The position numbers were made by a program, and so were the translations under genes. 64,000 nucleotides of DNA from Panorpa germanica. Its lineage: Eukaryota; Arthropoda; Insecta; Mecoptera; Panorpidae. The DNA lies in the NCBI GenBank assembly GCA_963678705.1, contig OY783210.1, positions 12,277,331 through 12,341,330 on the forward strand. The letters are read 5' to 3'. The notes under the pieces were generated by a model. It ran no database searches and was not told the DNA's origin. It worked only from the letters and a program-made list of their open reading frames with translations. Of the stretch, positions 31,028 to 54,396 are shown in pieces; the first letter of the stretch is position 1, and every line of letters begins with the position of its first letter.

Positions 31028-33222
31028 AGAAGTTCATGTTCAAGTTGTCAGATTGATATTGTCATGCAGTGCAAGGTGCCATTTGATTGCTTACTACAAG
31101 CTTATTGACTTATGGTTTATGCATTGTAAGACAATGTTCTGCATGGGCAATAACAAAATAATTGATGGCAATTTATAAGTATCAAAATTATATTATTCTT
31201 TTGTTAAATATTTCTTAAATTATAAATAAAATATTTTAGCATTTCTTCATTTTCTTAAAATCTAACAAACGAAGTAAGTACTCCTGAGTATTTTCTTGTT
31301 CACAAATAGCGGTATTATAAAGCCATTTCCTTCTTCGTCTTCAATCAATCAACAAAAGAAAAAAAAAAGGAACTACACTTGCTGTTCAAAGAATAAGAAA
31401 ACTAAAACACCTAAAACAATGTAAAGAAAAGCATCGTTTTCCCAACTAACAAGAAGGAGGTGTAAGAAGAAAACTCAGATATATATTCATTCATTCTAAA
31501 ATTTTCTCATTCCCCATTTCTTTTTTATCTTTACTATGTACATTATCCGAAAGCGAAAAGGGGCGTACATTGAACAACCCTCTAACAGGACGCTTCACAG
31601 GGATGGAGATCATAGAACGATGCCATACTAATGAAGGGTGCGCCCACAAAAAGTTAACTGGCTGAAAGTTATTCCCGCGGATGTTTGGTTGTTTCAATGC
31701 TAACCCCATAATGCTGTGGGCCCTGAGGCTGGGGATGAGAATGGGAATGGGAGAGAGTGACTACGTTGGAGTTCGAGAGGGATAAGTGGTGACCCATCTA
31801 GCTCGCTATCTCACCTATATTGGAATCCTAAAGGGTGGTCTTCAAGTGTCGTTTAGGGCATTGTATTAATGACGGGTAATGAATATATTACGTGGTGTTA
31901 TGTAAGTCCGACATGGGTTTTGTTGCTGATTCTAATGGCAAGGGATGCGGAGGCGTACGGTAAGTGAATAACTTGCTGTATTCCTATGTTCGTTATAGGT
32001 ACAACCATTGTACCTTTTGTTATCTTTACGTAAGTGTTACGATTATGATTACATGTTCATTTAAAAAGAATCAGTGTATGTTCCATAAAATTTAACTCAC
32101 ATTCATTTGAGCCTTAAATTGTTTAAGTTGTAAAAAATGTCGATGATTAAAGATCGCGATTAAAGAATATTGATCATTATAAATCAACAACAAGATAGTG
32201 AATTTTATATCTTTTTCGTTTCTGTATCCTCGTACATTATAGTAAAACGTTTTAAGTAATATTACCACAGATCTTTCGCGAATTGAACTAGTAATTGTAT
32301 CTCTGTCTGGACGCAACAATTAAATAATACACCAGCTAAGGATTGTCCCCACAAAACTCAAAAACATTACCATACATTCATGCAATACTTTGCTCAAGCA
32401 AAACCTAGTAATACATTATCATAAAACTGCGAAAAAGGATAGATTTAGGTGCAAAAAGCAATAACACAGGTCACAAAACGTTGTAAGTATATTGGATAAA
32501 ATGGTTTAAGTAAACAAGTAACTATTGCTAAATCAGATACACCTTAAATAAGAGTCCACACTGGTAGCATAACTGATATGATAATCTTTTAGGATAATGG
32601 CGAATACCTTAAATTTGCTTGTAAAAAACTAACAAGAGTGAAATTCCACCCAAGCAATTTTTAAATGATAATTAGAAAATAATTCTTAAATTTAACTTGT
32701 GACAGGCTATCAATTGTGAAATTGCAATTCAATACAATTTGACAATACTTGAAGAGCCCTGAAAATTACTCAAAAGATAACGTGGCACTGTTTAAAATAC
32801 TATTCAATTCAGTGCAAAAGTAATTCAACTTATACATCAAGATTACCTGACATTAATCTAATAGTTTACTTAAATAAAACACAGTAATATATCATTTAAA
32901 AGGGTTTAATATTTTAAATACATTTAGTCCTGAAAATGAAATTTCTAAGATTCCATAATCTTTAAAATAGTCTTCTTAAAATGTTTATTTTTCAGAAAGC
33001 TGTAAAATAGGCACATAATATTGTATTCTACTTAAATTCATGTAACTACTTTTGCGGGTTCAAATTCCATTCACGGCTATAAACTTATTTACAAAAAGAA
33101 TTTTTTTTATCTCAGTGCAAAGGTGTATAATTCACTTTCAAGAAATTCAATATGAACTTGATTCAGACTTCCGTTCTGTCGCACCAATATTTTATCAACA
33201 TAATACAAATGGACCTTATTTG
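31028..33222. other. Intergenic, nothing recognised
   Basis: A GC-richer patch is at 31560-31860, with no recognisable frame. The rest is AT-rich. Confidence 0.45.
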
Positions 33223-41353: not shown

Positions 41354-42344
41354 TTAGCTATACAAAGATGTTAAAGCCAGCTTATCATCGATATCGGGTA
41401 CATCTAAGTGTTCTGCGACAACATTCACTATGCGAACATACCTAAAACAATCAATAAACGGTTTAATCAAGTTAGCACAATGAGAAATTTAATGGGTCGT
41501 CTACACCAGTGTGACTCCAACATGCGACATTTGTTGAACGCGTGTGTAAGCTGAAGAAACATGTAACTAAAGGATCAGGTAGCTTTACATGTTGTTTTAA
41601 AATAATTCCGATGCTGAGACCTGTCACCAAAGACGAGTTCTTGTAGTGTCGCGGCCTTACATATGCCTACATAATACGTATTGATGCTATGAGAGACCAG
41701 TGACACAGAACTTTCACAAAACTTTCCAACTGTGACTAACCGCTTCGGCTATCTTATATTCATAGTGCTCTAAGCTATATCTTTGAACCAGACTGTCAAT
41801 GAACACCTACCTTCTTCATCCAATTCTGTTATATTTATGAGATTCTGGTAACATTTTTATAAAAATAAATCTGAAATAATTGAAAATTTCAGTACTACGT
41901 TATGAGAGAAACATAAAGTGTGAAAACTTACCCGCTTAGTAAAGAAATCAACATGGCACCCCAAAAAACGAAACACGTTAGACGTAAAACTTTAGGGTCC
42001 ATATCACTGCAAAAAGATATTTTAAATGCTAACTAAAGAACCAAATAAAATTAATTGCACTGTTCGTAGAAGAACTAAGCAGGTTCTAGAATGACCGAAG
42101 AGGAAGTATGTATTGGAATGGAGGAGAAGAGGGAATTTGCAGAATATGTGAGGAGAAGGAGGAGGAAGAAAAGCTGGAGGAAGTGAATATAAGGAGACTG
42201 TAATGTAGTTAAGGCATATACAGTTAAAATATAAATACAATACAATACGATATAAAAATTCTCCACTTACTCAATGAACATCAAAATTTTTCTCATCACG
42301 TAAACAATGCTTATAACTGTACACATTAAAATTAGAAGAATCAT
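41354..42344 (-). CDS. Small gene E: two-segment membrane peptide, 78 aa, three exons
   Basis: Proposed exons are 42344-42271, 42006-41932 and 41441-41354, all with GT donors (GTAAGT twice) and AG acceptors, and all junctions in phase 2 so that the frame stays open to TAA. Exon 1 starts MILLILMCTVISIVYVM, a hydrophobic anchor or signal. Exon 2 (75 nt, after a shared D codon) gives DMDPKVLRLTCFVFWG and a second hydrophobic stretch. Exon 3 ends hydrophilic and acidic (EHLDVPDIDDKLALTSLYS). Exon 2 is the same size, phase and GACCCT start as the 75-nt exon of gene B, which ties E to the array. I do not recognise the protein; topology by eye is two membrane passes with a short acidic tail. Introns carry a LINE zinc-knuckle scrap (42.06-42.2 kb). 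Confidence 0.6.
42085..42205 (+). pseudogene. LINE zinc-knuckle scrap in intron 1 of gene E
   Basis: The plus-strand frame gives GEEGICRICEEKEEEEKLEE and a stop. This is the CxxC start of the C-terminal zinc knuckle seen in the alpha LINEs, without the His and last Cys. It is antisense to gene E. The pyrimidine-rich frames on the minus strand here are its shadows. Confidence 0.4.
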
Positions 42345-43403
42345 GATGAAATTATTTTTGAATTTGAAGTAAATTTAAGTGCTTCATCAAATGTTTGTAA
42401 ATGGACTGAATTTTTAATCAATTTAAATAATATTCGCTGCGAAACGATTTGCTAAACAATATCATTAAATATTTACGTTCTATTGCTATAAAAACAGTGG
42501 TCCTTAAACGATGATCCGTAATTTTTTTTATAAAATATGTTGAATAGAAATCTACGTTTCAACGAACTAACATTTTTCTTTATGTTACTCAAATATTGTC
42601 AGAAAAAGTATTCATTATTTTTTCATAAATTGTAATGAGTTTTGTTTATATTGCTAAAAGAGTTCATTATTAAAGTCTATTATTATTTAAGAGTCATTGC
42701 ATCGAAAAGTTTGGGAAACATTACTGTTAAAATGATTTTAAACTTGTTTTTGACATATATACTACAATAACAAGTTATTGAATGTTTGAACTGTTTAATT
42801 ATTTAATCAATTCCCATTGTTTGTTCTAGAATCTTTAATTCTGAATGAAATGCTTGAAATCATGATTTTCATTTTCACTATCTACAAAATACAAAAACAT
42901 GAATGTTGCTGTGCTCTCAACACCCATCATATGCAAATTTTTCTGCAGCAAAACCTACTAATATTTCATCTAAGCTATTCTCTAAGCTTTTAATCCATAA
43001 AGAAGTTTTTTGAGTGTGCTTTTGCGCCAGTGTGCTATTAGATTATACATAAGTTTGTAGATGTGCTTGTTTTATAGTGAGTACCGAAGATGAACATAAT
43101 TCTGTTCTTATCATTAACTTAACGTAAATGACATTAAATATCCTGCAAGTAACTCAATCAGAAATGAAACACTTGAATTAGCTTGTAGCACGCTAGCAAA
43201 TTGAATCTCGCACACTGGTATACAGTTTCTATTTCGAAAAGTAGAAAATTAACTTTGGAATAAGGTTGTAGCAAGCGACCTTGAAACTGCACAACAGGAT
43301 AATTTTTAATATTAATTTAGTATGAAACATTGTTACTATAGTATATTTATGTCGAAAGATAATGCAACCCTAAAAGGTAATCTCTTTTATGTTAAATAAA
43401 CAT

Positions 43404-43406
<3 letters not shown>
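42345..43406. other. Upstream of gene E, no further exon found
   Basis: AT-rich. I looked for the 5' flank motif shared by genes A-D upstream of E and did not find a clear match, so E may have a different promoter or a more diverged one. Confidence 0.4.

Positions 43407-43475
<69 letters not shown>
43407..43475. repeat. (AT)n microsatellite
   Basis: About 34 uninterrupted AT units, between the 3' ends of gene D and the upstream region of gene E. Confidence 0.95.
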
Positions 43476-43476
<1 letters not shown>

Positions 43477-43708
43477 CTGTAGTAACTTTAGCTATTAGTT
43501 TTTATATTGGAAGTAAGGAAAAAATAAAAACATAAACTTTTATTTTTGAACCTTAAAATTTATATATTGTTAAAACATACAGATACAATTAGACGTAAAA
43601 TATTAGTAAAATAATCATTGATAAAAAACATTAAAGTAAATATAGTAAGTTCAAAGTATTATGTACCACACATCTTGATCTTGTGCAGTAGAATTTATTT
43701 GCGTATAT

Positions 43709-43923
43709 TTATTTAAAAAGTCCCGCTTTAAACATGATAACTACGCCCCTGAAAATAAATTTATTAAATTACAATTAACCTGATAAAGACACAAAATAAT
43801 ACAAAATGGAACATCAAATTATATAGAAGTATAATAAATATGCAATACTTACCAAATAACAAGTCCTATTAATATCAAGGATATAATAGATTTTGCAATT
43901 TTAACTCCATTGTGTTCCGCCAT
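43709..43923 (-). CDS. Small gene D: membrane peptide, 36 aa, possibly truncated
   Basis: Exon 1 (43923-43853, 71 nt) encodes MAEHNGVKIAKSIISLILIG... to a Trp codon split TG|G by a GTAAGT donor. After an intron of 104 bp with a TTTTCAG acceptor, exon 2 (43748-43709) adds GVVIMFKAGLFK and stop. The peptide would be a single hydrophobic helix with short hydrophilic ends. Past the stop, in another frame, lie the codons for INSTAQDQDVW, matching LNSTVENYDSW of gene C. So D has a frame change of its last exon, either an ending that has evolved or a pseudogene. Its 5' flank and 3' region are well conserved with A and C. Confidence 0.55.
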
Positions 43924-44110
43924 TTTTCCTGTTTGATAAAAATTATTAATATTAAAATATAATGCTTCTGTTATAAAACTCGATAGCTGCAGTTGATGGT
44001 ACGGCTTGATTTTCTCTGAATTTGTTTACGAATTGATAAATGAACTGGGGTCATAATAGCATTCCTCTAATCAACAATTGCTTAAAGAACTATTTGTTTA
44101 TAGCATCTAT
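43924..44110 (-). promoter_or_regulatory. Conserved 5' flank/leader of gene D
   Basis: On the minus strand this contains GAGGAATGCTATT, then TCGTAAACAAATTCAGA, then TATAACAGAAG.ATTATATTTT, directly before the ATG. The same order with about 85% identity lies upstream of gene A, and weaker versions upstream of B and C. It probably holds the promoter and the 5' untranslated region. No certain TATA box can be chosen in such AT-rich sequence. Confidence 0.55.
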
Positions 44111-44546
44111 TATATACAAATTATTAGAAGGTACTTGTTCTTTTATATTCTCATGGTACATAAAAGAGCAAAATTAAATTGCAAATGGAATTCAGATTTT
44201 TTAAATTTTCTTTTTAATATCTCAAAGTTTGAGAGTTGAGATAAAGCTACTTAAAATTTGACATTCTATTATGCCTCCTAATTTCTAATAATATTACCTA
44301 GAACAAGTGTAAAAACAATTTTCGGAAGAGGTATAGTTTTTAAAATAAACAGGAAAGCTTATTGCAACATTATTTTCCCCATCTCCCCATCTCGAAAATT
44401 TTAATTTAAATCCAGGTTTCACTCTAGAAAAAAACTAGAAAATACATGTTGAACCTTAATATTTATTTGATGATAAAATACAATTAGACGTAAAATATTA
44501 GTAAAATAATCAGTGATAAAAAATATTAAACAAAACAAGGCCCCCG

Positions 44547-45111
44547 TCAATTAATGTGTTGGTTGAACCACGAGTCATAATTTTCCACAGTCGAATTTAG
44601 TTGTAGCCGTGCCATGGACTCCTTGGTACGACCTATAAGTAACACCGCTTCACGAAATATAAGGACGCCCCTGAAAATAAATTCATTATTTACAATTGAC
44701 CCGATAAAGACAGCTATGAATATTTTTTATATAAATGTCTATATATATGTCTATAAATTGTAAATTACATATTATAAATGTTTATAAATGTATATATTGT
44801 TAAAGTGCTAATAATTGTTGAAAGTTGACACACAAATAATTATTAAAAAAAAGTAATAAATTTTAAAAAGTGTAATGTAATTGGTAGAATTATTGTTGAA
44901 AAATGTAATACCTAACGACAAAATATATAAATATAATATACAAATAAATGAATGAATGATAATGAAGGTTACCGGTCTTCGATGATTGAATTTACTGTGT
45001 ATTGTTGGTAATAACAAAAAATAAACAATGCAATACTCACCAAGCCACTAACACTATTATCAACACAACTAAGCCCATATTCATAAAGCACGCTACGCAG
45101 TTACTAGGCAT
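44547..45111 (-). CDS. Small gene C: single-pass peptide, 64 aa, two exons
   Basis: Exon 1 is 45111-45041 (71 nt) with a GTGAGT donor; exon 2 is 44670-44547 with a TTTTCAG acceptor. The join restores a Trp codon (TG|G). Exon 1 begins MPSNCVACFMNMGL and is followed by a hydrophobic run through the junction (VVLIIVLVAWGVLIF). Exon 2 is then hydrophilic with one N-glycosylation sequon in LQLNSTVENYDSWFNQ and ends in TGA. This is the cleanest model of the array: two exons, one open frame, good splice sites. It is most simply a membrane-anchored or secreted peptide. No family is recognised; a passing likeness of NYDSW to CD36-type proteins is too short to count. The intron contains a beta-LINE tail. 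Confidence 0.65.
44755..44850 (+). repeat. LINE (family beta) 3' tail in gene C intron
   Basis: It contains TATATTGTTAAAGTGCTAATA and GTTGAAAGTTGACACACAAA with an A-rich end, as at 6.5, 31.0 and 39.2 kb. It is antisense to gene C and inserted after the array formed, since D and A have no such block at this place. Confidence 0.7.
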
Positions 45112-45290
45112 TTTAGTTGAGTGGTTAAAATTACGATTAGTAAAATATAATTCTTCAGTTATAAAACTCAATAACTTCTAACGTCGGTACGACTTTCTGA
45201 ATTTGTTTGTGAAGTAAGAAATAAAAGAGGAGCCCATCGTTCATCAACAATTGCAGCCAGGAACAATGTAAATCTTCGAGTTGTACCTTT
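45112..45290 (-). promoter_or_regulatory. Conserved 5' flank/leader of gene C
   Basis: It shares CACAAACAAATTCAGAAAG, the following GTCGTACCGACGTTAG-like block, and TATAACTGAAGAATTATATTTTA with genes A and D, ending just before the ATG. More diverged than the A/D pair. Confidence 0.5.
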
Positions 45291-45696
45291 TGAAAAATGT
45301 TATCAAAGGCAATAAACATTGCTTGAGTTTTTGGCGGGAACTTGAAATTTTAAAATAATTAAATCATAATAATTTACTTTTGGTTGTGAGTCCGAGATTC
45401 TAAGTGGTAATGGCCATGGATAAAAAAGAAGAAGAGCATTATTGTGGGCGATAAAAGGCTATTTTACCATTAAGACATGAACAGCAAAAAGAAAAACATA
45501 AATTAAAATTGTGACCCTTAAAATATATTTGTTGTTAAGACATACAGACGCAAATATGCGTAAATATTAAAATGGTAAAATAATCATTGATAAAAATATT
45601 AAAATATTCATAACATTACAAAACGTAATAAGTTAATAGTATAGTGGGATCAGTATCAGATTTCTTATTACTAGTCATCATTTTCTACAGTAGAAT

Positions 45697-47919
45697 TTAT
45701 TGAAGATATCGATATTGCTTCAAGGGACGACTTAAATTCCTTGTCAATTTAGGGGTTAAAATGGAGCTGCTAAAAATAAATTACAATTGTTCAAATATAT
45801 TTATTTATTTTATTTATTATCTATCCAATTTCTTAGATAAATATTAAGAAGTACTTGATGTACTTCTTACCTTAGTATATATATAACTTACCTACTAACG
45901 TAAAAAATCAGCACGGAAAAACCAAACATGAATAATATTAAAGACATAACTAAAGGGTCCCTCGTACTGAAAAAACAAATATTGTTATTAACTTTTTTAA
46001 TAACAAACTTAATAAAATATTATGTTTAAATACGTAAATAATAAAATGTAATGTTTGGTAAAAAATTTTACATTCTTAGCAATTTTTGTTTACATGAAAT
46101 ATAAACGTTTTACTCATTTTATAAATAAAACCATTTTATGCCTGTTTGTAGTATAGCTCACAAAGTGCTGTTCCGGGAATTCCCGGAAAATATTATTATT
46201 TTTCGTTTTTTAGTGGCCTCCTAGTAAACATTTTGGAGTCACTTTGCCTTCGTATTGAAGATGCGTTTGATTCTTTTGTCATGAAAGAGTTAATTTACAG
46301 GCGTGTATTTGTCGTATAGTTTTCAGTACCTTACCTTGCCTTTGCTATCGTAGTTTACCTAATTTTGTACACTATAATCATACTCTATTTTTCTAATTTT
46401 ACATATTCTTCAATTATAACGAATTATAGTTCTATACTTACTCAGCTTCTAGGCCTAAGATTGCTGGTAACTCCCTAAACATTAAGAAAAATTAATTTGA
46501 TTAGTACACAAATAATATCCTCAACGGTATTTTTTCAAATACTGTAACTTGTAACAAATTTTTTACGGAACGTTTGCATCGCGTTAATAAAAGAATTGTA
46601 TTTAATTATTTATTATTTGAAACGATAAGAATATTTAGAGATATTTATAAGATATTTATTTGATAAGAAAGAATTAGAAACTTTCATGACATTCGTACTA
46701 TTAGTATGGGTTGTACAGTGATTTTAGTGACGCTACTTTTGTAATTTTCAAAACAATAGAAAAATTTGAGTTCGTGTATTGATAAGTTATTACTTTTTAA
46801 TGGGAAAAAAGTGTACAGCAGGCTATGAACGTATTGAGTGATGTGATAATATTCAACTAAACATCAAATTACAGAATCAATGGAAATGGAACAGAAAGCA
46901 GAGAAGGATGAATGAAAAAAGGAGTAAGGAAGGAGATCAGCGAGAAGAATTAAGGGGTTACATGGGTTTCGTCGGGTAAAAAAAGGCCTATTTTCAATAT
47001 TTTTTTTTCTATGTAAAAAATTATTTATTTAATTCAAACTTTTTTCTGTCTTATAGATACATATTTAAAGAATAATTTCTGAAATTTTCAAAAAAAAAAA
47101 ATTAAAACTCCTCCATTGTGACGTCATTTCCGGTGACCCTTCGAAAAAAAGGTGCGTCCGCGTTGTCAGCATAACTCCTGACAGGATCATCAAAAATGAA
47201 AAAACAAAAATAGGTGTTTTAGTTAAGACCATAAACTCGTGCTTGAAAGAAGGAAAGAAATAAAAAGTAAAAATTGGAATTTTGGCAGACATTTTTCCAA
47301 AAAAATTAAAATTTTGGTCAAATTTGCTTGACATTTTGTTTTTTAAAATAGTTGTAATTAAAAAAAAAAAATCCTTCGTCCAAGCACGAGTAAATTGTAT
47401 CTCAAACACCTGTGTAGAATTTCATCAAGATCGGTTAAGTAGTTTTTGAGAACATTTGACAACCGACTTTGAAAACACGGTTCCCAGAAAAACGCATTTA
47501 AAGTTTTGCGTAACAATAAAACTGACTTGGAGCGCACACCTTCCAAAGGCTGTATCTCCGAAACTATTATTCGGATCGACTTGAAAATTTAGGATAATAT
47601 TCTTGAGATGTTGTAGAAATTAATAAGCCAAAAAAAAATCGATTTTTTGAACCCACGAAACCCATGTAACCCCTTAACCGAGGAAATTATTAAGTAAGCA
47701 TAGTGAGAGAATATTATTGTAGGTGTTGAGATGGAGATATGTTGTTTGAAGAGCGAGAAGGTGCTGTTGCTCAAAGAATCTCACGAAATTATAATTAAAA
47801 AAATCTATAAATGTATAATAAATATCCAATACTCACCAAATAACCTCTAGTACTATTTTTACGATAAATACACATATAGTTGTACTAAGGAAAGCAAACA
47901 ATATATTATCATGCAACAT
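45697..47919 (-). CDS. Small gene B: two-segment peptide, about 87 aa, four exons
   Basis: Proposed exons are 47919-47837, 46474-46442 (33 nt), 45966-45892 (75 nt) and 45769-45697, all with GT/AG borders and phase-2 joins. Exon 1 starts MLHDNILFAFLSTTIC and is hydrophobic to the split Trp. The micro-exon adds ELPAILGLEA. Exon 3 adds TRDPLVMSLILFMFGFSVL, a second hydrophobic segment. Exon 4 adds a basic tail (PKLTRNLSRPLKQYRYLQ) and TAA. The final exon is shifted by one base from the frame used by A and C: its INSTVENDD codons lie in another frame, overlapping the stop. Intron 1 is long (1.36 kb) because a 720-bp TTAA-flanked element sits in it. Less certain than C because four exons must be right. 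Confidence 0.5.
46228..46305 (+). repeat. Short dispersed repeat shared with 20.02 kb
   Basis: AGTAAACATTTTGGAGTCAC, then TATTGAAGATGCGT and TTTTGTCATGAAA, at the same spacing as 20023-20105. The element type is not known; the other copy interrupts a MITE. Confidence 0.6.
46695..46850 (+). pseudogene. Mariner 5' fragment in gene B intron
   Basis: The plus strand carries the leader GACGCTACTTTTGTAATTTTC, then a frame resembling TIEKFEFV and FLMGKK across stops. This is the mariner N-terminus as at 38.3 and 63.7 kb. Only about 150 bp remain. Antisense to gene B. Confidence 0.55.
46954..47673. mobile_element. TTAA-flanked TIR element, 720 bp
   Basis: Inverted ends GGGGTTACATGGGTTTCGT are perfect for 19 bp, and TTAA lies on both sides (46950-46953 and 47674-47677). 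TTAA duplication is used by piggyBac and Sola3-type elements. The GGGG start is not the usual piggyBac CCC, so the superfamily stays open. It has two minus-strand frames (47065-47409 and 47358-47546) without transposase motifs. It is inserted in intron 1 of gene B. Confidence 0.82.
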
Positions 47920-48100
47920 TTTTCTTATTAGTTGGAAATTACTGATATAAAAATATAATCCTCCAATTACAAAACTCGATAACAGCAAAGGAACGACCTT
48001 ATGGCTTTCTTCTCTTTAAATTTGTTTGTGAAATAATAAATTGATTCGATCCATTCCTTTTGTCAACAATTGATTAAGAACAATGCAAATGAGCCAGTTG
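47920..48100 (-). promoter_or_regulatory. Conserved 5' flank/leader of gene B
   Basis: On the minus strand it contains TCACAAACAAATTTAAAG, then TTGCTGTTATCGAGTTTTG, then GGAGGATTATATTTTTATATC before the ATG, in the same order as A, C and D. Confidence 0.5.
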
Positions 48101-48553
48101 TATTATTTGAGAAATGTTATGAAAGAAACGAACAGTACTTGAGTTATTTAATATAAATAATTTGTTATTACAAAATACTGCATACTTTTGTGAATGACTG
48201 TATAAATTTTTCCGGGACGGTCGACACCATCAAAAATTGTTTGAAATAAAGAAATTCAAATTATTTTTGTGAATACATGTAATACCTTTCAAATATCATA
48301 AGTAAAACTTTTTTGTAAAAATGACGGTTCTTTAAAATAAAAAAATATTGATTTATTGTTAAAATTTAATCATAAATAACTTAAATTTGTTTATATATAT
48401 AATAAAATGTTGTTAACAAATACAGATACAATTAGGCTAAAACTATTTGGTAAAATAATCATGGATAAAAACATTAAAGTAAACGTAGTAACTGCAGTGT
48501 GCTATTAATAAAAGATATCCTTGAATGCTGCACCACTACCATAAGTCAGCTTT

Positions 48554-49653
48554 TTACGCAGTAGAATTCATTTGTAGACTTGTTTCGTTTTTCCAGATAG
48601 GAAAACTATAGTTATTCCTCGAAGGGATTGTAGTGTGATTCCTAAAAATAAATTAATCAATTATTTTTTTAATTATTTTAATTAATTAGTTATGAGGGAC
48701 ACCGCAACGAAACTTTTTTTGTGACGTCTGCGGAGATTCGTTGTTAATGCTTCATTTCTTGATATTTATTTATGAAAATTTCACAAAGTATTCTTTAAAT
48801 GTTATTTTATCAGATAGTAATTATAGAAATATTTATATATTAACTGTGTCGTCAAAAAACATTATCGAAAATATGCTTTTTTTTGTATGGATTTGACCTT
48901 AACCCCCTGACTACGGTGTTTTCGAATTCGATGCCGGAACCAGACTTATATTATCTGAGTTTGCTTGGTATTAAGTTAAATTGATTATGTACATACATAA
49001 GGGATTTAAGCCACATATTATAGTAATATATCGAATTTTTCTAAATTGTAGTTTTGCACTTACTGATTTACGATGCTGATCATTACTGCTACATTCCTAA
49101 AAATAAGGAAAATAAATTTAATTAATACAGCACATAATTTTCTTTGCAATTAATCCTAAATACTTTGATGTTAGAGGCGCTATCACACTTGATCATGAAG
49201 GAGAGAATTTTTTAATGTTTATCAATACAAACTGCATCATAAAAGTATGGATCATATCAAAGTGCCGCCCTACTTTTTACTCGCGTCTATATCGTGAACA
49301 CGACTGTTATGTGCTTTGTATAGACAGCGGATCGGTGAGAGGTGAAAAAGATACAGAAATATAATATCCAGTGCAGTGGTGTATTGATAAACATTAAAGT
49401 AAAAGCTTTCTTTTAAAAAATACGAAACAAGTTAAATACATCCTGTTGTAAAAGTGGGCGCCATAGAAAAATGTTAACATTTAAAACAGCGAGCATTTCT
49501 TTACCGTATTGTTACTTTCACCACAAAATATGTTAGTTGAACATCTAATTACATAACTGAATAATAAATATCCACTACTCACCAAAATAAAACAACACAC
49601 ATTGCCATAAGTACAAATGATAGTATATATATAAGTGTAAGTCCATTTGCCAT
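48554..49653 (-). CDS. Small gene A: anchored peptide, 63 aa, three exons, three sequons
   Basis: Exons are 49653-49583 (71 nt, GTGAGT donor), 49096-49064 (33 nt, GTAAGT donor) and 48641-48554. All joins are in phase 2 and the frame is open from ATG to TAA. Exon 1 begins MANGLTLIYILSFVLM and stays hydrophobic to the split Trp. The micro-exon adds NVAVMISIVN. Exon 3 is hydrophilic (NHTTIPSRNNYSFPIW, then KNETSLQMNSTA) with three N-glycosylation sequons (NHT, NET, NST). This pattern suggests a signal-anchored or secreted glycopeptide with the tail outside the cell. The exon 3 length up to NST is the same as in gene C (24 codons). No known family is recognised. Confidence 0.62.
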
Positions 49654-49860
49654 TTTTCTTGTTTGTTAAAAATTACTAATATTAAAATATAATCCTTCTG
49701 TTATAAGACTTGATAGCAGCTGTTGACGGTATGGTTCAATTCTTTCTGAATTTGTTTACGATTTTGTAAATGAACGAGGGTCACAATAGCATTCCTCTTA
49801 TCAGCAAATATTTAAGAATATTTTCTATTGTCTATTATTCAATACTTGTTCAACAAAATA
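49654..49860 (-). promoter_or_regulatory. Conserved 5' flank/leader of gene A
   Basis: It shares GAGGAATGCTATTGTGACCC, TCGTAAACAAATTCAGA and CTTATAACAGAAGGATTATA with gene D at about 85% identity, and more weakly with B and C. The likeness stops at the ATG, where the coding parts diverge sharply. Confidence 0.55.
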
Positions 49861-49944
49861 AGTCGCAGAACGTAATATAGCAAGCCCATCGTCTTATAGA
49901 TGATTTTCAAAATTTTCGCGATATATAGATTTCTTCACATATAA

Positions 49945-50583
49945 TGCCGGCTTTACACCAGATAGACAGTTGCATAAAACTGCAACAAAAAGTTGTTTTT
50001 TTTTAAAAGTTGTATCAATGTTTACACCAAATAAGACATTTTGTACAACATTTTTATCATTTATTGCATTTATTGCAGTTCTTTGCAAAAAAGATCAAAG
50101 GAAACACAGTTGCCTTGTTTTTAGGCCCTTCGCACATGATCGCAAACGCGAACCCTGAATCATGATGGTGAACAGCATGAGCAGAGATGTGCACACACAC
50201 TTTTCAAAAGTATTTCCCTATTATGCTATTGTTAAAAATTCTATAGAGTAACGAATCATTGCTCGACATTGAAAACTTCGAGTTTTCAATCAGACTCGTG
50301 TGTGAACGGCCTTAGTCTATTTGGTTTGAATTTGCAGTTTTAGTTTCTGTATACATTTGCACTTCGCCTCGCAGTCGATTCAAGAGAGGGTAAACATGAA
50401 ATGAATATACTTTTATCTCTTTCTATCCAAACAAGTATAGTATCATCATATTGTAATCTAAAAAATATCTTCTTATAAAGTTGTAAAAACTGTCTAGTTG
50501 GTGTAAACATTGATACAACTTTAAAAAAAAAACAATTTTTTGTTGCAGTTTTATGCAATTGTCTATCTGGTGTTAAACCGGCA
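49945..50583. mobile_element. Long-TIR element, 639 bp, flanked by TAA
   Basis: The arms are about 105 bp long, beginning TGCCGG(C/T)TTTA..ACACC and sharing ACTGCAACAAAAA.TTGTT and GTTGTATCAATGTTTACACC. TAA lies at both outer edges (49942-49944, 50584-50586). Three-bp TWA duplications are typical of PIF/Harbinger, so that is my tentative class. A second, shorter inverted pair (TAGGCCCTTCGCACATGA / TAAGGCCGTTCACACACGA) at 50122-50314 suggests another element nested inside. No transposase. Confidence 0.7.
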
Positions 50584-50586
50584 TAA

Positions 50587-53479: not shown

Positions 53480-54396
53480 GGGGTCGGCGCTCGAAGTGTT
53501 ACCAATTTCACACTGCTGTAGCAAGCAAACGACTAATAGCAGTGCGCTCATTTTTTGACTAACGTTAGTCTGTTATTACTCTTACAAGCCTACAAGCAAA
53601 TCGTTTTACATTGCTGTTAAAAAAGTTATTGAAATGGAAGTCAAACGCAGTAGTGCTATTGCTTTGTATTTGGCTGGAAAATCGCAACCAGACATTGTTA
53701 ATGAACTCCGGCTTTTACATGTGAACAAAATGTTAGTGTATCAGATCGTTACACGTTACAATGATACTGGTAGCATCAAAAAACGCTATGGAGGCAGACA
53801 TCCAAAAACAACAACATCGCCAAAAATGGTTCGAAAAGTAAAGGCTATAATTCAAAGTAATCCAATACGTCTAGCAAGAGCAAAGGTGTTAAAACACTTG
53901 CACGTTGATGACGAACTTGAAAATTTGTTCTTTTCTGATGATATTTTTTTTATGGTTCGACAATATGTAAACAAACAAAACGATAGTGTATGATTAGAGT
54001 TTAGACCACTCGATTTTATTAAATAGCCCGTGAAACACAACGTTCTTTACAAGAACAAGTTCTCAGCTTAATTTGTTCACAACAATGGCCACCATATTCC
54101 CCGGACTTAAACCCAATTGATTTTTCCATATAGTCCATTGTAAAGGCCAAAGTATCAACAACAAAATATGAGACAGAAAATGAGAATGGGACAAAATACC
54201 ATCAGACCACATTCGTGCAGCGTGTAAAGTTTTCTTGGACAAACTCAATACTATTAACCGCGCTAAAGGTGGCTACGTCGAACAATAACATTTTATTTGA
54301 AATGTTCTTACGATATACTGAAGTTTTTAAATAAAAAAACCAAATTGATAAAATTACAGCATTTTTAATTGGTAACAGTTCGAGCGCCGAGCCCTC
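53480..54396 (+). mobile_element. maT-like DDxD transposon, 917 bp, defective
   Basis: The ends GGGGTCGGCGCTCGAAGTG and (inverted) GAGGGCTCGGCGCTCGAACTG continue in common to TTACCAATT. A TA dinucleotide lies outside each end (53478-53479 and 54397-54398), as in the IS630-Tc1-mariner superfamily. The inside holds a broken transposase (see next entry). Full elements of this type are about 1.3 kb, so roughly 400 bp are gone. Confidence 0.85.
53634..54288 (+). pseudogene. Broken DDxD transposase (maT/ITm-like)
   Basis: The N-terminal part (53634-53880) starts MEVKRSSAIALYLAGKSQ and has a helix-turn-helix (LVYQIVTRYNDTGSIKKRYG), then a GRHPKTTTSPKMVRKVK linker. A deletion follows. The frame picks up ENLFFSDDIFFMVRQYVNKQ, the segment with the first catalytic Asp in intact relatives (FSDEKIF), and stops at 53991-53993. 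A second remnant (about 54085-54288) has WPPYSPDLNPIDFSI with a third acidic residue that is Asp, hence DDxD rather than DDxE. It ends GGYVEQ and TAA. The segment with the second Asp is missing. The protein is dead; the class rests on the NPID motif and the TIR type. Confidence 0.8.

Follow-up and report, generated by a model that had tools for sequence, protein, structure and literature searches.

The minus strand of a 64,000-nucleotide (nt) window of the Panorpa germanica genome, to whose scale all positions given here refer, carries an array of five small multi-exon gene models, A to E, which on the evidence of the letters are very probably real genes. With about even confidence, they are read here as a rapidly changing family of membrane micropeptides with one or two passes, confined to a single locus, in which the hydrophobic helix would be the property kept. 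The models had been proposed in an earlier note made from the sequence alone; they were reassembled from the minus-strand letters, and all five (two to four exons, 36–87 residues) were recovered exactly as described (Table 1). The products are 63 (A), 87 (B), 64 (C), 36 (D) and 78 (E) amino acids long.

Gene models and tandem duplication

The first exons measure 71 nt in A, C and D and 83 nt in B, as the earlier note had it, and their lengths equal 2 modulo 3 in all five genes. GTRAGT donors were found in 9/9 cases and phase 2 at 9/9 junctions, with a tryptophan codon split as TG/G in each of A, B, C and D; all four internal exons (A exon 2, B exon 2, B exon 3, E exon 2) are in phase 2 at both ends. 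In 5/5 genes, an in-frame stop precedes the ATG by no more than 150 nt.

The window was compared with itself using blastn, which linked A, B, C and D by one block upstream of the ATG and a second around the 3′ untranslated region (UTR). Searches of the assembly (464 Mb in 249 contigs; match counts are lower bounds) with the D leader, and with 43510–43760, which is mostly D 3′ UTR and includes the D last exon, each returned at least four places, all in the array and one per gene A–D. The A–D unit therefore appears to have been duplicated whole, unlike a dispersed repeat, and an origin of the array from such a repeat is unsupported. Over the 150 alignment columns that precede the ATG, the leaders of A and D are identical at 124/146 positions; the 33-nt microexons of A and B are so at 18/33 (shuffle p 0.00045; 52/83 with flanks). 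On this sequence evidence, A–D are tandem duplicates from one ancestor. Their agreement is thus largely inherited and no independent evidence, so that the consistency which the note had called very unlikely by chance does exceed chance, but mostly reflects shared descent.

Gene E is tied in through one exon. Its exon 2 and B exon 3 are identical at 44 positions over the full 75 nt (0/20000 shuffles reach this identity; z 7.1 in block scoring), with acceptor and donor at the same alignment columns, whereas its leader shows no relation to the four A–D leaders (z −0.7 to 0.9) and its exon 1 little relation to theirs (best z 2.2, with B). E is therefore a distant member, and the proposed tandem array of five stands as an array with whole-unit duplication, made up of four closer copies and one distant one; likewise, the common leader context of the ATG holds for A–D but not for E. 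A division of E into two genes was considered, given that exon 2 carries an ATG of its own, 71 nt ahead of the donor, and in this resembles exon 1 of A, C and D. Exon 2 was retained as an internal exon because of its similarity to B exon 3, compared with slight similarity (z −0.6 to 2.4) to the five first exons. For the end of E, the last exon as proposed is somewhat favoured over an alternative one, since AATAAA follows about 77 nt past its end, whereas the alternative has neither AATAAA nor ATTAAA within 200 nt and its end touches a dispersed repeat. This repeat (41658–41823, in E intron 2) has at least 40 genomic matches elsewhere, with 40 of 139 candidates scored.

Hydrophobicity and divergence along the genes

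Evidence that the models are coding is of an indirect kind. Places with an ATG, an open frame and GTRAGT at 60–90 nt were collected from 264 kb around the array on both strands. Eighteen were found, eight of them with a hydrophobic 18-mer, and 6/8 of the latter lie inside the 8.5-kb stretch of the array (criteria applied by eye), namely the five first exons and the ATG in E exon 2; the six do not represent six independent events, because A–D are duplicates. As a null for hydrophobicity, shuffles of each first exon with the same composition were used, and only those staying open were kept. The hydrophobic 18-mer exceeded the open shuffles in 5/5 first exons (p 0.000 to 0.019); hydrophobicity summed over the five was 12.54, whereas 2000 draws reached 9.46 at most. 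Thymine (T) was counted 71 times at codon position 2 of the five first exons (shuffle mean 53.1, p 0.0005), frame 0 was the most hydrophobic of the three frames in each, and the exon 1 frames are open in 5/5 genes, compared with 9–22% of their shuffles.

Hydrophobic stretches were called with a 19-residue sliding window, the edges of which are generous, at residues 1–35 in A, 1–36 and 41–69 in B, 1–38 in C, 5–36 in D, and 1–25 and 30–59 in E. Start codon, hydrophobic stretch, donor and 3′ UTR are kept in all of A–D. N-X-S/T sequons number four in A (in the last 28 residues), one in B (not the NST of the others) and one in C, with none in D or E.

Similarity along the gene was scored in 71-nt blocks for the six A–D pairs under three penalty sets, with gap costs counted and z calculated against shuffles; B exon 1 is 83 nt long, and the D last-exon block extends past its 40-nt coding part and stop. 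Exon 1 gave z 1.4–5.2 and the two leader blocks 3.9–18.2, exon 1 being lower in 6/6 pairs and 3/3 penalty sets. The 3′ UTR core gave z 6.6–12.8 at −8/−0.5, the only set used for it, with exon 1 at 1.5–5.2 and again lower in 6/6 pairs; for the opening 71 nt of the last exon, z was low as well (−1.0 to 4.4). The coding blocks are the least alike of the blocks tested (leader, exon 1, last exon, 3′ UTR core), which is a statement of relative similarity only and not of positive selection; the pattern may mean either that leader and UTR are constrained or that the peptide diversifies.

A hyper-acceleration of exon 1 was rejected. It was suggested by a MAFFT alignment in which exon 1 was ungapped between A and D (33/71 identical, against 124/146 in the leader), and much of it was gone once gaps were introduced (A/D identity in exon 1 45/62 at −6/−1). 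Measured as column identity, exon 1 fell below the flanks at p <0.05 in only 3/24 tests (six pairs, four penalty sets), namely C/D at −6/−1 and A/D and C/D at −10/−0.5, with A/C at −10/−0.5 giving p 0.050; at −4/−0.5 and −3/−0.5, identity in exon 1 equalled or exceeded that of the flanks in several pairs, but with many gaps.

Mode of evolution and rival readings

In the favoured explanation, the simplest history would start from one ancestral gene made up of a first-helix exon (exon 1), a microexon of 33 nt, a second-helix exon of 75 nt and a short last exon, with all junctions in phase 2, and whole units from leader to 3′ UTR would have been duplicated in tandem. C and D would have kept exon 1 and the last exon only, A also the microexon, B both internal exons, and E the second helix; since the internal exons are in phase 2 at both ends, a copy may drop one without damage to the frame, and internal exons were presumably lost rather than gained among the copies. 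The products (36–87 amino acids) would have tails that are short and variable, and either a single long hydrophobic stretch or two such stretches, with B and E as predicted helical hairpins and A, C and D as single-pass peptides. They would insert in a cell membrane and act by helix–helix contact with a membrane partner, as modelled on known membrane micropeptides, in which case hydrophobicity, more than sequence, would be kept. This mode of action is put forward tentatively, at somewhat less than even confidence. Translation and membrane insertion of A–E, as well as any diversifying selection on them, we infer.

Several observations weigh against this explanation. The T content of exon 1 is 35–45%, and T-rich DNA readily yields hydrophobic peptides. 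Indels of exon 1 are multiples of three in 12/18 cases, against 5/30 in the flanks (−10/−0.5; pairs non-independent), but this excess varies with the penalties, with 10/22 against 4/46 at −8/−0.5 and 9/27, the chance level, against 5/50 at −6/−1; last-exon indels are without it (3/15, 2/19, 6/23). Silent (pS) and replacement (pN) differences in exon 1 are about equal (pS 0.27–0.65, pN 0.27–0.55 in six pairs; 0.27 each for A/D), so that purifying selection on the peptide is not demonstrated. The earlier note placed the NST codons 24 codons into the last exons of genes A and C, and a hand count on the translations agrees. They are no common conserved feature: a single gap column puts this stretch out of frame in B, gaps do so in D, and the A stop codon comes one codon after it. 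Past the end of B, neither AATAAA nor ATTAAA was found within 300 nt, and in the introns of A, C and D a search for a relic of the second-helix exon yielded no clear one.

An unlikely alternative is that the peptides are secreted, with exon 1 as signal peptide and the last exon as a mature peptide of saliva, venom or the male accessory gland, diversified by selection. The N-terminal hydrophobic segment, the short variable tails and the clustered sequons of A suit this idea. Among families of secreted toxins, conservation is usually highest in the signal exon, and the mature exon is variable. Here, exon 1 itself varies, and the last exon does so too; as the hydrophobic exon is variable, secretion fits less well. 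Moreover, signal peptides tend to be shorter than hydrophobic stretches of 25–38 residues (window edges generous), a second hydrophobic exon is present in B and E, and almost nothing follows the helix in D. The lower similarity of exon 1 and last exon by score, relative to leader and 3′ UTR, is on the other hand a pattern like that described for venom genes (PMC2711939). Of the earlier description as membrane or secreted peptides, the first term is thus the better supported.

To be given the same low probability is a non-coding RNA array, i.e. a duplicated transcription unit of which leader, splice sites and 3′ UTR matter, the frames being chance products of T-rich exons. Such an array would agree with the closer leader and 3′ UTR blocks in 6/6 pairs, with the similar silent and replacement differences, with the NST stretch being out of frame in 2/4 copies, and with indels at chance level in the last exons and at one penalty set. 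It is opposed by hydrophobicity and T at codon position 2 in excess of open shuffles, by five first exons that are all open, and by a phase kept throughout first, micro- and second-helix exons. Improbable, too, are hypervariable membrane micropeptides under diversifying selection, for example in genetic conflict or as effectors, for which leader and 3′ UTR would stay constant while the helix is reinvented in each copy under constraint on hydrophobicity only. A decaying family, in which A, C and D would be degrading remnants of a once-functional two-helix gene like B or E, is very unlikely: the microexon and the second helix are missing from C and D, A stops early relative to C, the tails of B and D are frame-shifted and exon 1 shows similar levels of silent and replacement differences, but the first-exon frame and donor are intact in 4/4 of A–D despite 15–34% leader divergence, and the hydrophobic stretch is retained in all copies.

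Known families, feature positions and neighbouring loci

The earlier note could not match the peptides to a known family, and none of the searches yielded a relative. Six proteins gave no Pfam family above cut-off (best E-value 0.012), the B and C peptides had 0 matches in the PDB at E-values up to 10, and genome searches with B and E returned places inside the array and one further match each (E-values 0.86 and 0.48, taken as chance). A scan of viral contigs with the C peptide gave no confirmed match, and Rfam 0 matches in the window at gathering thresholds. The literature titles and abstract openings listed contained nothing matching the array, which is no proof of absence from print. Going by the sequence, A–E most likely constitute an orphan family, new as such, whereas small membrane peptides are a kind already known.

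Sarcolamban, the insect SERCA regulator, is such a membrane micropeptide; likened by description only, A–E share with this class a length below 100 amino acids and a mostly hydrophobic helix. Known membrane micropeptides are conserved, unlike A–E, which are variable and arranged as a tandem family. Aphid bicycle proteins carry paired cysteine (CYC) motifs; the C-Y-C motif is absent from the A–E translations, which contain 0–2 cysteines per peptide. Bicycle genes show strong divergence and very small internal exons, almost all of phase 2, at an average of about 17 and a minimum of at least five exons (PMC9168663). A–E are alike in divergence, in very small internal exons and in a phase by which exon gain or loss keeps the frame, but have 2–4 exons. 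Yeast ‘TM-first’ de novo genes encode short membrane-prone proteins without relatives from thymine-rich DNA (PMC7005711). The short membrane-prone product, the T-rich exon 1 and the lack of relatives found recur in A–E; unlike the yeast genes, A–E are multi-exon and present in several copies, with a common leader and 3′ UTR (A–D) and hydrophobicity beyond composition. For venom gene families, coding exons that diverge faster than other gene parts are reported under the term ASSET (PMC2711939). A–E are similar in that coding exons diverge more than other parts of the gene; unlike in those secreted toxins, it is the hydrophobic stretch that varies, and positive selection is not demonstrated.

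Table 1. Positions of the features of genes A–E in the window.
Feature	Position	Strand	Length (nt)	Basis
A leader / 5′ flank, common to B–D	49654–49803	−	150	window self-blastn; A versus D alignment; genome search with D leader
A exon 1, MANGLTLIYILSFVLMAMCVVLF + TG of split Trp	49583–49653	−	71	rebuilt model; hydrophobicity tests
A exon 2, microexon, homologous to B exon 2	49064–49096	−	33	alignment to B exon 2; rebuilt model
A last exon with four N-X-S/T sequons and a stop one codon past NST	48554–48641	−	88	rebuilt model; alignment
B exon 1	47837–47919	−	83	rebuilt model; hydrophobicity tests
B exon 2, microexon	46442–46474	−	33	rebuilt model; alignment to A exon 2
B exon 3, homologue of E exon 2, with second hydrophobic segment	45892–45966	−	75	alignment (44/75, z 7.1)
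B last exon, one gap column versus A and C shifts NST stretch out of frame	45697–45769	−	73	alignment
C exon 1	45041–45111	−	71	rebuilt model; hydrophobicity test
C last exon, longest tail (LQLNSTVENYDSWFNQHIN)	44547–44670	−	124	rebuilt model
D exon 1	43853–43923	−	71	rebuilt model; hydrophobicity test
D last exon, shorter than that of C through alignment gaps; 36-residue product	43709–43748	−	40	rebuilt model; alignment
D 3′ UTR, core common to A, B, C	43510–43708	−		self-blastn; block scores; genome search
E exon 1, leader unlike A–D	42271–42344	−	74	rebuilt model; hydrophobicity test; leader scores
E exon 2, homologous to B exon 3	41932–42006	−	75	alignment (z 7.1)
E proposed last exon, its end followed by AATAAA after about 77 nt	41354–41441	−	88	rebuilt model; signal scan
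E alternative last exon, 67-residue product, end touches dispersed repeat	41816–41870	−		rebuilt model

Two elements with inverted ends were located at the array, one inside B intron 1 (46950–47677; 35-bp ends, 91%, TTAA on both sides) and one just upstream of A (49944–50584; 109-bp ends, 91%). On the plus strand, 31869–31959 may be a first coding exon and encodes a hydrophobic stretch (MTGNEYITWCYVSPTWVLLLILMARDAEAY, phase 1, GTAAGT); should this exon be part of a long gene on that strand, the array could sit in one of the gene's introns. A transposase-like open frame at 53559–53990 (+), which we take to be mariner-like, has a Pfam PAX domain above cut-off (E-value 4.8e-7). At 39.2–41.0 kb before window position 1, on the minus strand, a signal-peptide-like exon (MKLAALLVVGLVAIIGGALA, phase-0 GTAAGT) is followed by a 447-residue open frame of ESHSCPNSNESEPS-type repeats, probably, from its sequence, the gene of a secreted repetitive protein. 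At 109620–113690 on the window scale, which is 45.6–49.7 kb past the end of the window, three open frames were recorded, of which those at 109620 and 110987 resemble each other and have KDTNVAYxHDR in common, while the one at 113166 is different; those at 109620 and 113166 gave no Pfam family at E-values up to 0.1.

Tiny multi-exon genes of this kind are easily missed by gene finders, the longest coding exon here being 124 nt, with no relative found to guide annotation. The array illustrates how exons that are all in phase 2 permit copies with and without internal helices, and it provides replicates within one genome, with alignable leaders and 3′ UTRs as references, for the question whether selection keeps only hydrophobicity.

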